Assembly: GCF_000020585.3 (NCBI RefSeq) | Contig: NC_011138.3 | Coordinates: forward strand, 1,643,193-1,707,192 | Origin: Alteromonas mediterranea DE | Lineage (GTDB): Bacteria > Pseudomonadota > Gammaproteobacteria > Enterobacterales > Alteromonadaceae | DNA length: 64,000 bases | Reading direction: 5' to 3' | In this document: piece by piece, positions 15,936 to 21,673 of the stretch | Position numbering within the stretch: the first letter of the stretch is position 1 | Layout of the letters: each line of letters starts with the position of its first letter | Made by a program: the position numbers and the translations under genes | The notes under the pieces: model-generated | Seen by the model: the letters and a program-made list of their open reading frames with translations, nothing else | The model's database searches: none | Told to the model about the DNA's origin: nothing

Positions 15936-18023
15936 ATGTCAGACTTATCTCATTACAGAAACATTGGTATTTTCGCCCACGTAGACGCGGGTAAAACTAC
16001 CACAACAGAACGTATCTTGAAGCTTACTGGTAAAATCCATAAAACTGGTGAGGTTCACGATGGTGAATCAACAACTGACTTCATGGAGCAGGAAGCTGAG
16101 CGTGGTATTACCATCCAGTCAGCGGCAACAACCTGTTTCTGGAAAGATCATCGCATGAACATCATCGATACTCCGGGACACGTTGACTTTACAGTTGAAG
16201 TATATCGTTCACTTAAAGTACTAGACGGCGGTATCGGTGTATTCTGTGGTTCTGGCGGTGTTGAGCCTCAGTCAGAAACTAACTGGCGTTATGCTAACGA
16301 ATCTGGCGTAGCACGCTGTATTTTCGTTAACAAACTAGACCGTATGGGTGCAGACTTCTACCGTGTTGTTGGCCAAGTTAAGAAAGTACTTGCTGCTAAC
16401 CCACTAGTAATGACGCTTCCAATCGGTATCGAAGACGAGTTTAAAGGTGTTGTTAACCTTCTAGACATGAAAGCGTACATCTGGGATGACACAGGCCTTC
16501 CTGAGAACTACGAAGTAGTAGATATCCCAGAAGATATGGTTGAGAAAGCGAACGAGTACCGTGAGCAACTAATCGAGACTGCTGTTGAGCAAGACGACGA
16601 CCTAATGATGGCTTACATGGATGGCGAAGAGCCGTCTCTAGAAGACATCAAGCGTTGTATCCGTAAGGGTACTCGTGACCTAGCGTTCTTCCCAACATAC
16701 TGTGGTTCTGCATTTAAGAACAAAGGTATTCAGCTAGTTCTTGATGCGGTTATCGACTTCCTACCTTCTCCAACAGAAGTAGACCCACAGCCTCTTACAG
16801 ATGAAGAGACTGGTGAACCTACTGGTGAAGTAGCAACAGTATCTACTGACGAGCCGTTCCGTGCGCTTGCGTTCAAAATCATGGACGACCGTTTCGGTGC
16901 CCTAACGTTTATCCGTATCTACTCTGGTGTGCTTAACAAGGGTGACACTATCCTTAACAGCGCCACTGGTAAGACTGAGCGTATCGGCCGTATGGTTGAG
17001 ATGCACGCTGATGAGCGTACTGAACTTACTTCTGCACAAGCGGGTGACATCCTAGCTGTTGTTGGTATGAAGAACGTTCAAACTGGTCACACGCTATGTG
17101 ATCCGAAGAATGCTTGTACACTAGAGCCAATGATCTTCCCTGAGCCAGTAATCTCGATTGCTGTTAAGCCAAAAGACAAAGGCGCTAACGAGAAGATGTC
17201 TATCGCTATCGGTAAACTAGTAGCAGAAGATCCATCTTTCCAAGTTGAAACAGACGAAGATTCAGGCGAAACCATCCTTAAAGGTATGGGTGAGCTTCAC
17301 CTTGACATCAAAGTAGACATCTTGAAGCGTACTTACGGCGTTGAACTAGAAGTGGGTCAGCCTCAGGTTGCATACCGTGAAACTATCACGCTACCTGTTG
17401 AAGACAGCTACACGCACAAGAAGCAGTCTGGTGGTTCTGGTCAGTTCGGTAAGATTGATTACCGCATCAAGCCAGGCGAAACTAACTCTGGCTTCAAGTT
17501 CACATCTACAGTTGTGGGCGGTAACGTACCTAAAGAATTCTTCCCTGCAATCGAAAAAGGTTTCGCAGGTATGATGGAAGTAGGTCCTCTAGCGGGTTAC
17601 CCAGTACTAGACGTTGAAGTTGAACTATACGACGGTGGTTTCCACGCAGTTGACTCATCAGCAATCGCGTTTGAAATTGCAGCGAAAGGTGCATTCCGTC
17701 AGTCAATGCCAAAAGCAGGTCCTCAAATTCTTGAGCCTGTGATGAAAGTTGACGTATTCAGCCCAGAAGACAACGTGGGTGACGTAATCGGTGACCTTAA
17801 CCGTCGTCGTGGTATGATCAAAGACCAAGAAGCTGGCGCTACTGGCGTTCGCATCAAGGCTGACGTACCTCTATCTGAAATGTTTGGTTACATTGGTCAC
17901 CTACGTACTATTACATCTGGTCGTGGTCAGTTCTCTATGGAATTCAGCCACTACTCAGCATGTCCTCAGAACGTAGCTGATAAAGTTATTGAAGAAGCGA
18001 AAGCACGTAAAGCAGCTAAGTAA
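15936..18023 (+). CDS. fusA2: Elongation factor G, stand-alone FusA2-type
   Basis: A 695-residue translational GTPase that drives tRNA-mRNA translocation. G1 (AHVDAGKTT), G2 region ([10 protein letters not shown]), G3 (DTPGHVDF) and G4 (NKLD) are intact, and domains II-V follow without truncation. It is not in a str operon (no rpsL, rpsG or tuf nearby) and its length matches the second EF-G of Vibrio and Alteromonadales. Codon use is strikingly biased (GGT, CGT, AAC, CTA, GAC), unlike its neighbours, implying high expression. The copy number of fusA in this genome cannot be seen here. Own promoter and terminator. Confidence 0.93.
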
Positions 18024-18078
18024 TTAGCCTTTGCGAGCGTTAGTTAGCTTAAGTTGGCTAACGCTTCGAGATACACTA

Positions 18079-18107
18079 AAAAGCCGGTCAATAGACCGGC
18101 TTTTTTT
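18079..18107 (+). terminator. Terminator of the EF-G gene
   Basis: Arms AGCCGGTC and GACCGGCT with an AATA loop, followed by seven T residues. The A-run on the other side lets it also work for the leftward cynS operon ending at 18127. Confidence 0.92.
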
Positions 18108-18316
18108 ATGCCTGTAAAACCTACATTTAATACATCTTGTAGGGCAAAAACTTTCCTGACATTACCACGCTAACCCGGTCGCCTTTCGGGTCGTTTTCAC
18201 GTTGTAAGTCCATCGAAAAATCAATCGCGCTCATAATACCGTCGCCAAACTCTTCATGAATTAATTCCTTTAATGTAGTGCCATACACATTCACCAATTC
18301 ATACCAGCGGTAATTT

Positions 18317-18348
18317 ATACCAGTCCGCATAAATAATTACCCACTCAG
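18317..18348. repeat. Left terminal inverted repeat of the element in cynS
   Basis: Begins ATACCAGTCCGCATAAAT and ends CCCACTCAG. Matches the reverse complement of 18550-18581 at 30 of 32 positions (differences at A/G in ATAAAT versus ATAGAT and A/G in TTACC versus TTGCC). Confidence 0.92.
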
Positions 18349-18460
18349 CGAGAGTTAAAATGTTCGTAATCGCGGCGTGTTGCCGCAGGTATAGTGGTTC
18401 TACATCAAGGTGACACAACAAAGAGTACGGACATTTTAAGCTCGCCCTTCGGGAAGGTCT

Positions 18461-18541
18461 GGCAAGCTTCCTAGCTTCATTCTGGGAATTTGAAAGGGAA
18501 CAGCCATTCCTGCATTCCCACGCTTTGCTAGGAAACTTGCC
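18461..18541. repeat. Nested foldback inside the element
   Basis: Outer arms GGCAAGCTTCCTAGC (18461-18475) and GCTAGGAAACTTGCC (18527-18541) pair with one mismatch; inner arms TGGGAAT (18483-18489) and ATTCCCA (18514-18520) pair perfectly. Together they form one long imperfect hairpin, so any transcript through the element would be strongly structured. Confidence 0.8.
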
Positions 18542-18549
18542 AGCGCCTT

Positions 18550-18581
18550 CTGAGTGGGCAATTATCTATGCGGACTGGTAT
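18550..18581. repeat. Right terminal inverted repeat of the element in cynS
   Basis: Ends ATGCGGACTGGTAT. The inverted partner of 18317-18348. Read on the minus strand it supplies the TAG that truncates the N-terminal cyanase fragment. Confidence 0.92.
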
Positions 18582-18871
18582 TCGGGGTCGGTGGGCACTT
18601 CTGTTGGCAACGAGCCTTTGTAGGGGACGAATTGAAGCCACGCAATCGCTTCGTCGGTAAGCGCTAGTAACGCACCCACAGCTTCAGCTTGTTGTTTCGT
18701 CATGGCCATTTGGCCTAAGCATGCCGCTGTACTCCATTCTTTCGACTGACCAACAACTTCTGCAATCTGGCTCCATTTTATGCCTTTTAAAATTTTGGCT
18801 GACTGGATCATGTCGGTGACTTGGGTTCTACATGTAATCATTGATTTTTCCTTGTAATGTTAAGTAAGTAC

Positions 18872-20689
18872 TTAAGTAAATAAGAACAGCGTAATTAGGT
18901 TGCTAAAGATAAGGGTTAGCACAAGCGCTTTATAAACAAGTAAAGGGTGACGCTTTACTAAGGGAATATAAGCCGAGTTATGACTAGGGTTAGGGTAGCG
19001 AAGTGAGTAAACAAATTCGGAAATAGAAGAGTAGCGCTTGTCAGGGTTAATATGCAGCGCTCGTTTTAGCGCGCTGTCTACCCATGTTGGAACAGGGCGC
19101 TTGGCATCTAACGCGCTTTCGTAATTTAATTTTCTTTGCGCTGCGTAAGTGCGGCAGTGAGCGAGTTTCGTTTGATAAGGGTAGCGCCCGCATAACAGGT
19201 AGTATGTCAGCACGGCAAGGGAAAACATATCCGAACGCTCGCTACCCATGTTTCCTAAGAAATACTCGGGGGCCGCAAAAAGTGCCGTACCAGGTATAGT
19301 CGCCTCACTATACAAACTGGGCGCTTCAATCAAAGCCGCCGCACCAAAATCGATAATCGTGCAGTGCCCTTGGGGGCTAATCATAATATTTTCTAAACGA
19401 ATATCACGATGCAAAATGCCTTGGCGATGCATGGCCTGCAGGCCTTTTGCAATTTGTTCAACGATATCTCTTACTTGTTCTAATGTTGGTGTTGGGTTAT
19501 CGATAGCCCATTGTGCGAGGGTCTGCCCGCGAACATATTCGCAAATACTATAAAAAGCCGTGGGGGACGGTGCTAAACCTAAATCGGTAAATTGGGGGCT
19601 TTTAATGACGTGGGGAGAGTTTACACGTCGCGCCAGCCAGTTTTCTAGCACAAAAGCGCTAAGGGCCTCGGGCGTTTGCGTAAAGTCGGTCGCGGGTGTT
19701 TTTATCACTACTTGCGGGCTTAGGTTTGTTTCATTCAATGCTTGGCTATGTAAAGTAGCGGGGGTGGCTAAAAATACATGGCTACGCGCCGATGTATAGA
19801 GTTGTCTAGTGATAGTGAGCCCGTCAATTTTATCGCCTGTATGTAACTGGGCGATTGTCAAAGGCGCTGTCGTAGCATAGGTAGAGCGCTTATCGCCCCC
19901 CAGCGCGTCTGTTGTTGTGTCTTGCTGGAATGCAGCTTTGATAAGAATAAGGGTAAGGTTGTCGTCGCTTCCTTTGTTAAATGCGTCATGAACGACCATC
20001 GCCGCTTTATTCTCTTGTAATTCCTCCCCTTCGTTTACAGTTCTCAATAGGGGGGATAACGCTATAAACTCGTGAACACCATCGGTACTTATCGCTATGG
20101 AGCTTGAAGCGGTAAGTTTCTTATAAGTATGGTCTATATCAATGTGAGCTTTAATGCCTATAGCATTTGAAAGGTAGGAATGAGACGGGTTTTCACGTGA
20201 GGTTTCTCGATGAGGCCGGGTAAGCGATGTCGATGTTTTATCGCCCGAAGAGAAGAGTGTTACATCACCGTCTCCTACATGGAAAACATCTAGCTGATTG
20301 CCGGTTAATATAACAACGGTTAGCGTGCATACGTACCCTTTTTCGGGCGTGTAGGCAAAGGGGCTTTTCTGCGTTCGCGTATAAAGCAGCCCGTTAATTT
20401 CTTTTATAATGGTTTCAGCGCAGGTCTTTATCGAGAATTGTTCAGGCGCTATTTTAAATAGCTTAATAAATTGGCGAGTGGCGAAATCACTCGCCATTTG
20501 GCTTACCGTACTGCTGCTAACGCCATCTGCAATAACAAAAACACTGCTCGCTTCAGGTTGGCTTGTATCTATGTGATAACTGTATGCATCCTGATTTACA
20601 GGCTTCGCACCACGCGCTGAATAAGCACTTACACTCAGCGCAAGGGGCTGGGGATACGTAGACGTGTGTAATGTTACTGGCTCATTCAT
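18872..20689 (-). CDS. Bifunctional PP2C phosphatase - Ser/Thr protein kinase, membrane anchored
   Basis: 605 residues. The N-terminal PP2C phosphatase (about residues 10-255) has VIADGVSSS, HVGDGDV and STDGVHEF metal-site motifs. The kinase (about 270-570) has the Lys of VVIKTPA, the catalytic HRDIRLENIMI (near residue 426) and DFGAA. A single C-terminal hydrophobic helix (ALVLTLIFSNLITLFLF) anchors it. Such fusions are known next to nitrate/nitrite assimilation genes, with undefined substrates. It lies between the formate/nitrite channel and cynS, so a role in controlling that uptake or nitrogen pathway is inferred. Both catalytic halves look intact. Confidence 0.9.
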   Translation of the reverse strand: MNEPVTLHTSTYPQPLALSVSAYSARGAKPVNQDAYSYHIDTSQPEASSVFVIADGVSSSTVSQMASDFATRQFIKLFKIAPEQFSIKTCAETIIKEINGLLYTRTQKSPFAYTPEKGYVCTLTVVILTGNQLDVFHVGDGDVTLFSSGDKTSTSLTRPHRETSRENPSHSYLSNAIGIKAHIDIDHTYKKLTASSSIAISTDGVHEFIALSPLLRTVNEGEELQENKAAMVVHDAFNKGSDDNLTLILIKAAFQQDTTTDALGGDKRSTYATTAPLTIAQLHTGDKIDGLTITRQLYTSARSHVFLATPATLHSQALNETNLSPQVVIKTPATDFTQTPEALSAFVLENWLARRVNSPHVIKSPQFTDLGLAPSPTAFYSICEYVRGQTLAQWAIDNPTPTLEQVRDIVEQIAKGLQAMHRQGILHRDIRLENIMISPQGHCTIIDFGAAALIEAPSLYSEATIPGTALFAAPEYFLGNMGSERSDMFSLAVLTYYLLCGRYPYQTKLAHCRTYAAQRKLNYESALDAKRPVPTWVDSALKRALHINPDKRYSSISEFVYSLRYPNPSHNSAYIPLVKRHPLLVYKALVLTLIFSNLITLFLFT

Positions 20690-20824: not shown

Positions 20825-21673
20825 CTATATCGGTAGTGTTTCTGACGCCGCCGCTTTGTTTACAGGAATGGTGCGCTTAGGTAGCGTTTTTACGTGAGTG
20901 GTGTAAAGCGTAAGACCAGTAAATGCCAAGCCACCTACCAAGTTCCCCAGTGCCGTTGGAATTTCATTCCAGATGAAATAATCCATAACCGAAAAGTCGC
21001 CACCCATGATAAGACCAAATGGGAAAAGGAACATATTTACCACAGAGTGTTCAAAGCCCATGAAGAAAAACAGCATGATAGGCATCCACATGGCGAGCAC
21101 TTTACCGCTAACATGAGTAGATATCATCGCGCCAACCACACCTAGCGAAACCATCCAGTTACACAGCATGCCGCGAATGAAAATGGTAAACCACCCAGCC
21201 GCGCCGTGCTCTGCGTAGCCCAACGTACGGGCTTCACCAATGCTGGCCACTTTAGTCGCAATCGCGCCGCCATCTACGTTGTAACCCATGGTAAAGATAA
21301 ATGACATCATAAACGCAACCGTCAATGCGCCGCCAAAGTTCCCTAAGAACACCAGGCCCCAATTACGAAGAATTTGTTTAGGGGTTACGCCGGGCCGTTG
21401 GGCAAGCCATGCGAGTGGGGTAAGTACAAAGACACCGGTTAATAGGTCGAAACCCATAAGGTAAAGCATACAAAAGCCCACCGGGAACAACACGGCACCT
21501 AAAAGAAAAATGCCAGTTTGCACCGCAATGGTAATAGCAAAAACAGCGGCCAGCGCAAGAATGGCACCTGCCATATAAGCACGAATTAGGGTATCGCGAG
21601 TAGACATATAAATCTTTGCTTCGCCTGCATCTACCATTTTGGTAGCGAATTCAGCGGGGAGTAGATAAGCCAT
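20825..21673 (-). CDS. Formate/nitrite transporter (FNT) family channel
   Basis: A 282-residue inner-membrane protein with six predicted helices in the FNT pattern: AGAILALAAVFAITIAVQTG, then a GAVLFPVGFCM segment, NWGLVFLGNFGGALTVAF and GMLCNWMVSLG. FNT pentamers pass formate, nitrite or other small monovalent anions; FocA and NirC cannot be told apart here. Being first in an operon with a PP2C-kinase and cyanase, nitrite or cyanate are reasonable candidates (inference). It is preceded by a long structured leader with a terminator and a sigma-54-like promoter. Confidence 0.9.
   Translation of the reverse strand: MAYLLPAEFATKMVDAGEAKIYMSTRDTLIRAYMAGAILALAAVFAITIAVQTGIFLLGAVLFPVGFCMLYLMGFDLLTGVFVLTPLAWLAQRPGVTPKQILRNWGLVFLGNFGGALTVAFMMSFIFTMGYNVDGGAIATKVASIGEARTLGYAEHGAAGWFTIFIRGMLCNWMVSLGVVGAMISTHVSGKVLAMWMPIMLFFFMGFEHSVVNMFLFPFGLIMGGDFSVMDYFIWNEIPTALGNLVGGLAFTGLTLYTTHVKTLPKRTIPVNKAAASETLPI

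Follow-up and report, generated by a model that had tools for sequence, protein, structure and literature searches.

A cyanase gene of Alteromonas mediterranea DE split by a MITE-like mobile element composed of two inverted half-units with covarying hairpins

REP and BIME sequences are palindromes repeated in bacterial genomes, and the Correia and NEMIS-type elements are also palindromic and small, with a T/A-rich target (TA) that is duplicated. In the accessible parts of the respective sources, REPs are given a length of 20-40 bp (PMC3733652), Correia elements are mentioned (PMC4853749), and prokaryotic MITEs are described as multicopy sequences of <500 bp with TIRs, the younger copies of which have short direct repeats and the transcripts of which are said to form stable stem-loops (PMC10969869). 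The accessible part of PMC2718517 includes (its Table 3) two repeats of Pseudomonas fluorescens, R178, of 101 bp with internal 11-bp inverted repeats, and R200, of 320 bp.

The element described here was found in the window, the 64,000-nucleotide stretch of the Alteromonas mediterranea DE genome that was analyzed, where it interrupts cynS. This gene runs on the minus strand from 18841 to 18127 and is broken into two open reading frames (ORFs). The N-terminal half (18566-18841, minus strand; 91 aa), which ends inside the element, matches the complete Pfam CYNS_N profile (69 of 69 positions, E 8.9e-26), and the catalytic C-terminal half (18127-18330, minus strand; 67 aa), which starts inside the element, matches positions 8-68 of the 69 in the Cyanate_lyase profile (E 9.7e-33). 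In 29 of 30 relatives fetched, cynS is 450 bp long and encodes 149 aa (the gene of the thirtieth, L039, was not extracted by the pattern used), as compared with 715 bp here, and the additional 265 bp form a single block in each of nine pairwise alignments of the split gene with intact relatives. The two ORFs, their domains, and the 265-bp excess bear out an earlier, sequence-only reading of the locus as a cynS gene split by an inverted-repeat element, and the relatives and alignments give a positive answer to the test proposed in that reading, namely whether the two halves are contiguous with intact cyanases. The cyanase C-terminal domain is present in 40 of 59 genomes of the genus; the 39 others with the domain match from profile position 2 in open frames of at least 150 aa, and the genome of this strain alone has a shortened form. 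It contains just one PF02560 match, and an uninterrupted 149-aa cynS frame is absent in this strain. Because the sole match is to the interrupted gene, loss of cyanase is likely here, which agrees with the loss of cyanate use that had been suggested. Upstream of cynS on the minus strand are an ORF (18872-20689) with matches to PP2C-type phosphatases and Ser/Thr kinases and an ORF (20825-21673) that resembles formate/nitrite transporters, all of these matches being below curated cut-offs; the two ORFs are a possible uptake and control group.

From TIR to TIR the element comprises 265 bp (18317-18581), as defined by its inverted arms, by full copies, and by the boundaries in 55 copies, but comparison of these copies indicates that the mobile unit is probably the 263 bp from 18318 to 18580, TACC...GGTA. 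The arms are 32 nt in length and 94% complementary, with 201 nt between them. As had been read from the sequence, the left TIR (18317-18348, plus strand) supplies the ATG of the C-half ORF and the right TIR (18550-18581, minus strand) supplies the TAG that ends the N-half ORF. The left 3-bp target copy is TTA (18315-18317, plus strand), and the right copy (18581-18583, plus strand), in comparison with the perfect TWA duplications found elsewhere, is altered to TTC. Two small ORFs located inside or mostly inside the element have no Pfam matches. The split gene is very probably a null allele that arose when a non-autonomous MITE-like element entered cynS at a TWA target. The TAG in the right TIR would halt translation past the N-terminal domain, and the catalytic half would have the ATG in the left TIR as its only start, for which inspection by eye shows no clear ribosome site; an active enzyme would not be expected. 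The C half does retain, together with this ATG, the sequences YRWYE and IMSAIDF, which we take to hold the catalytic R, E, and S by likeness to the Escherichia coli enzyme, and these features would suit a cyanase that is split yet active, with both halves made and cooperating. This is nevertheless very unlikely, in view of the location of the ATG inside a 32-bp inverted repeat and of the changes at conserved positions in other C halves, which are those expected without selection.

The other C halves belong to a group of database proteins that share the joint between gene and element, and for this reason the split allele is not confined to this strain, which it probably predates. P0001 is a 91-aa N half with the same joint and one change (longest contig 880 nt; its cluster of seven may include the protein of the window itself), and P0121 (contig of 10,252 nt) and P0122 (contig of 560 nt) are 67-aa C halves with the same joint and with three and four changes, respectively. 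One P0122 change, N to S, is seen in intact relatives too, but the other changes in P0121 and P0122 hit positions that are constant among the intact Alteromonas proteins listed. P0004 (91 aa; contig of 1,569 nt) also ends in the element but has a different joint residue and is from a lineage with S4, H25, E57, and E60. The split allele seems to drift, although it should be noted that these proteins are mostly from short contigs and that their changes may be single-contig sequencing errors. The differences S4C, E57A, and E60A were considered as decay and rejected, since they are present in the intact proteins P0002 and P0003; P0003 and P0013 are proteins named Alteromonas mediterranea and, with P0002, locate the strain within or close to this species. 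Apart from I71F and the joint, the N half of this strain is identical to that of P0002 (149 aa, 110 contigs), the closest intact protein. The earlier view that the insertion is recent is consistent with this closeness but conflicts with the presence of the same joint, accompanied by drift, in other proteins.

A second part of that reading was that exact removal of the element rescues the frame and that cynS may undergo phase-like inactivation. Cutting exactly 18317-18581 does generate a 149-aa frame, with EN replacing LI at the joint, and the arithmetic of the 265-bp excess was therefore right. However, this is not the expected product of excision, since copies elsewhere consist of a 263-bp unit with a 3-bp duplication; cutting the 263-bp unit alone, or together with either 3-bp target copy (266 bp in all), leaves cynS frameshifted. 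A reversible insertion, in which the element leaves and returns and cynS is phase-switched, could draw on the exact 265-bp net excess and on the coexistence of split and intact alleles among related sequences, but the frameshift produced by either clean excision and the changes at conserved residues in split alleles make it extremely unlikely, and phase-like inactivation is unsupported.

Sixteen matches to the element are present in the genome of this strain, a number that includes the copy in the window and cross-matches between ends; five are full length at 95-100% identity, and there are partial ones as well. Within the genus, 31 of 59 genomes have matches (E up to 0.001, some weak). With TACC...GGTA (263 bp) taken as the unit, 30 of 55 full-length copies have a perfect 3-bp duplication, which is always TAA or TTA, whereas 25, including the copy in cynS, have no perfect duplication. 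At one insertion site (L002), all three relatives that were read are empty and have a single TTA. At a second (L004), the element is absent in all six relatives read, five of which have TAA, and two genomes (G023 and G033) have split matches about an element apart and look occupied. At another of the four sites compared, 6 bp that are present in four of four relatives are lost beside the insertion in the occupied copy. The element moves or has moved, because it is repeated and has sharp ends, many 3-bp duplications, and empty sites in relatives. A TA duplication in Alteromonas was considered and rejected, as the comparison of copies and the empty sites give TWA. Among the Pseudomonas relatives, 12 of 23 pairs have TA at each flank, a count that is based on flanks as opposed to empty sites and in which several pairs are the same site in different genomes; these flanks hint that a different enzyme may act there.

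Element sequences of other forms are present as well. One-arm, mosaic, or truncated forms are found at L083 and L082 (both in G021), L084 and L085 (both in G000), and L147, and the short forms at L078, of 46-62 nt, have little beyond the ends. In L147 (130-1635), two one-arm copies bracket an ORF that by eye is pentapeptide-repeat-like, a layout resembling a small compound transposon; the half-units there are 1.24 kb apart and seem to be one-arm copies independent of each other. The copies at L016, L013, and L023 are at, or no more than 6 codons from, the end of a long ORF, and in copies near ORF ends the TAA target can be the stop codon, preserved by the duplication. At L022, L019, and L026, the joined flanks give long ORFs over the insertion (537, 235, and 232 aa, respectively), and these may be other genes broken by the same element; the flanks of L019 and L026 are near-identical and are from two genomes. 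Several contig ends in G040 (among C42, C46, C48, C53, C11, and C35) start 9-57 bases from an element end, and the element may disturb draft assembly. Among plasmids, the Alteromonas element matches one of 72,556 records and a Pseudomonas copy matches four plasmid records; the latter has no match in phage records. In two of three plasmids inspected, a transposase of another kind lies within about 4 kb of the copy but does not bracket it (IS1071/Tn3-like on one and of the IS1182 family on another), and the third has none listed.

The element would be moved in trans by a transposase that, in Alteromonas, cuts with a 3-bp stagger. Scans for the ends and searches with DDE_Tnp_1 and DDE_3 found no autonomous element and no transposase with the ends of the element; the end-pattern scans covered G033 and four genomes with site lists, which are full for G000 (32-mer, 9 sites), G012, and G021 and give 100 of 165 sites for G040. 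In two genomes, end-like sites form three convergent pairs with spacings of about 1.0-3.4 kb, none of which contains a transposase-like ORF by eye. DDE_Tnp_1 (PF01609) has matches at 11 loci in four of eight element-rich genomes, but none of these loci bears a pair of element ends, a single site with three mismatches being present in L315. In the same eight genomes, DDE_3 (PF13358) gave one match, below the cut-off, with no end pair at the locus. G040 has 162 end-like sites compared with 11 for the control pattern, and G021 has 64 compared with 17; neither genome has a DDE_Tnp_1 or DDE_3 match, and enzymes with those domains are therefore not needed there for the copies present.

On either strand, the element forms a three-way junction in which the TIR stem is joined by a pair of long hairpins, with an energy far below that of dinucleotide shuffles (z −11.7 for DNA and −13.4 and −13.7 for RNA; none of 200 shuffles as low). 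A chance origin of the element is excluded by its repeat copies, the matches in the genus, and this fold energy. These hairpins are homologues of each other on opposite strands, and the element consists of inverted half-units of ∼131 nt, each with a ∼100-nt hairpin. Half-unit B (18317-18447, canonical strand plus) contains a TIR and a hairpin and is separated by a 3-nt center (18448-18450, the TTC of CCC-TTC-GGG) from its inverted homologue, half-unit C (18451-18581, canonical strand minus). Covariance model R2 scores them at 113.8 bits (E 1.1e-26) and 117.4 bits (E 1.4e-27), respectively, but these scores are not independent, since the window copy (L009) belongs to the training set of the model; the second covariance model finds half-units B and C in the window and no others. 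The same fold is formed by a 264-bp copy, 66% identical, from another family of the order and by further relatives with unrelated stem letters; it is not kept in L110, an in-genus copy at 74% identity.

Each half-unit hairpin covaries, with stems that change in step and some fixed letters in the internal and apical loops. In an alignment of 11 half-units made with MAFFT without structure, 89.0% of cells are paired, two-sided changes are found at 27 of 29 pairs, and the covariation score is 0.843 as compared with no more than 0.248 for slid pairings; it should be recognized that five elements, each represented by both halves, account for 10 of the 11 and that the structure prediction drew on largely these same half-units. 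For 66 half-units from 35 loci the score is 1.007, in an alignment that was fitted to the model and is biased to it, with ten of the 66 in the training set; in controls for these 66 rows, two of five measures were reached by shuffles (3 of 500 and 15 of 500). A structure-blind alignment of the 66 arms has two-sided changes at 32 of 34 pairs and 90.0% paired cells at a mean identity of 0.49. All 66 arms are 98-102 nt in length, which is in part imposed, since the model cut them out. In the consensus, an internal loop has CAAGGC opposite AAC.C.G as constant letters and the apex has AT.G, whereas the stems vary; the unpaired AAGGC and AAC are kept at 80% or more in the 66 half-units. These observations bear on the alternative that the element is an ordinary decayed IS derivative, in which the fold is a by-product of long inverted repeats and the hairpins are unselected. 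Small size, TIRs, duplications, and the absence of a transposase ORF suit an ordinary MITE, and the one-arm forms (L083, L147) and 46-62-nt forms (L078) indicate that the arms are not strictly required for presence. In contrast, two-sided changes at nearly all pairs of such divergent arms are difficult to reconcile with unselected hairpins, neutral inverted repeats should not retain unpaired AAGGC and AAC, and G.T is in excess in arm B and in arm C when each is read on its respective strand; the decayed IS is thus an unlikely explanation. In the preferred model of a MITE-like insertion, a folded strand, as a short RNA or single-stranded DNA, would be needed by the element to spread or be tolerated.

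A G.T mismatch on one strand of a double-stranded cruciform corresponds to A.C on the opposite strand, and therefore neither should be favored. Class-wide, G.T and A.C number 109 and 16 (254 and 196 expected from column composition), and in the second set 180 and 37 (427 and 343 expected), both of these comparisons being biased by the model; a structure-blind alignment gives 164 and 46. In a count made without a model on 41 of the 55 copies, those of 265 bp with at least 94% identity, new G.T and A.C mismatches are 17 and 4 in arm B (plus strand) and 11 and 2 in arm C (minus strand). The totals of 28 and 6 become 18 and 5 as distinct events (p 0.011), a count that removes in part only the effect of shared ancestry among the copies. 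When a single strand is used for the complete element, with the TIR, the numbers are 30 and 31. Since G.T exceeds A.C with each arm read inward, selection, within the bias stated, acts in each arm on one folded strand (RNA or single-stranded DNA), namely the strand that runs inward from that arm's end of the element. In DNA, too, G.T is a milder mismatch than A.C, and the excess of G.T therefore does not separate RNA from single-stranded DNA. Promoter-like sites are at the level of chance (1 found, 1.3 expected).

Related half-units extend through a large part of the phylum Pseudomonadota. A covariance model built from 11 half-units has matches in 98 of 369 genomes sampled in the class and in 75 of 271 genera, in a search with rough E-values and stricter filters, and a second model has matches in 131 of 398 genomes sampled in the phylum. 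A pattern scan of named genomes gave at least 80 loci; those listed include Pseudomonas, Shewanella, Colwellia, Cognaticolwellia, Thalassotalea, and Microbulbifer, and also Dechloromonas, Gallionellaceae, Burkholderiales, and Zetaproteobacteria, and the second model has a match (E no higher than 0.01) in 77 of the 80 listed. When gaps of up to 40 nt are counted, 58 of 66 half-units in the first set are in convergent pairs, at 29 of 35 loci, with a spacing of exactly 3 nt in 28 of the 29 pairs; in the second set 112 of 141 are convergent, at 53 of 77 loci, with 3 or 4 nt in 50 of 56 pairs. The ends of the element differ between lineages. We tentatively suggest that the element could be the Alteromonas branch of a Pseudomonadota-wide, two-headed mobile class, in which each half would have an inward-read structured RNA or single-stranded DNA hairpin, the ends and perhaps the duplication length (TWA or TA-like) would vary, and the hairpin core would persist as the selfish, conserved part, able to pair with different transposases; this proposal is somewhat less probable than not.

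Rfam has no match at gathering score in 18000-19000, and for seven related loci there are five matches up to E 5, the best at E 0.32, all below gathering. Motif searches of the literature gave no relevant paper on the element, with most subscription papers outside the literature searched. The family is widespread and apparently uncatalogued. A gene-breaking repeat that is easily dismissed as a MITE bears a very clear covarying fold without a credible Rfam match. An RNA fold would make this a mobile element that disseminates structured RNA as mirrored pairs, whereas a fold of single-stranded DNA would point to a structure-reading route of transposition. On the host side, the locus is a natural, probably null, cyanase allele alongside intact alleles that are common.

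Like REP and BIME sequences, the element is a repeated palindrome, but it is of ∼265 bp, with half-units of ∼131 nt, TIRs, and duplications, and does not have the 20-40-bp unit size of REPs. With Correia and NEMIS-type elements, compared by general features, it shares palindromic structure, small size, and a T/A-rich duplicated target, and it differs in the 3-bp TWA in place of TA and in the three-way fold with two long arms. The TA duplication of an IS630/Tc1-type MITE is likewise not found in the Alteromonas copies, which duplicate TWA. R178 of P. fluorescens, as far as its description in the accessible part of PMC2718517 allows comparison, has the size of one arm of the element, and many Pseudomonas records contain related half-units; R178 may be this arm, listed earlier. 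The small size, TIRs, dispersed copies, target-site duplication (imperfect in the cynS copy), and lack of a transposase ORF place the element with the MITEs, except that no parent IS was found in the end-pattern scans and the two transposase-family searches. As prokaryotic MITEs are described in the accessible part of PMC10969869, the element resembles them in size, TIRs, short direct repeats, and multiple copies but is unlike them in its covarying hairpins, in loop letters that are fixed across classes, and in head-to-head half-units arranged about a 3-nt center.
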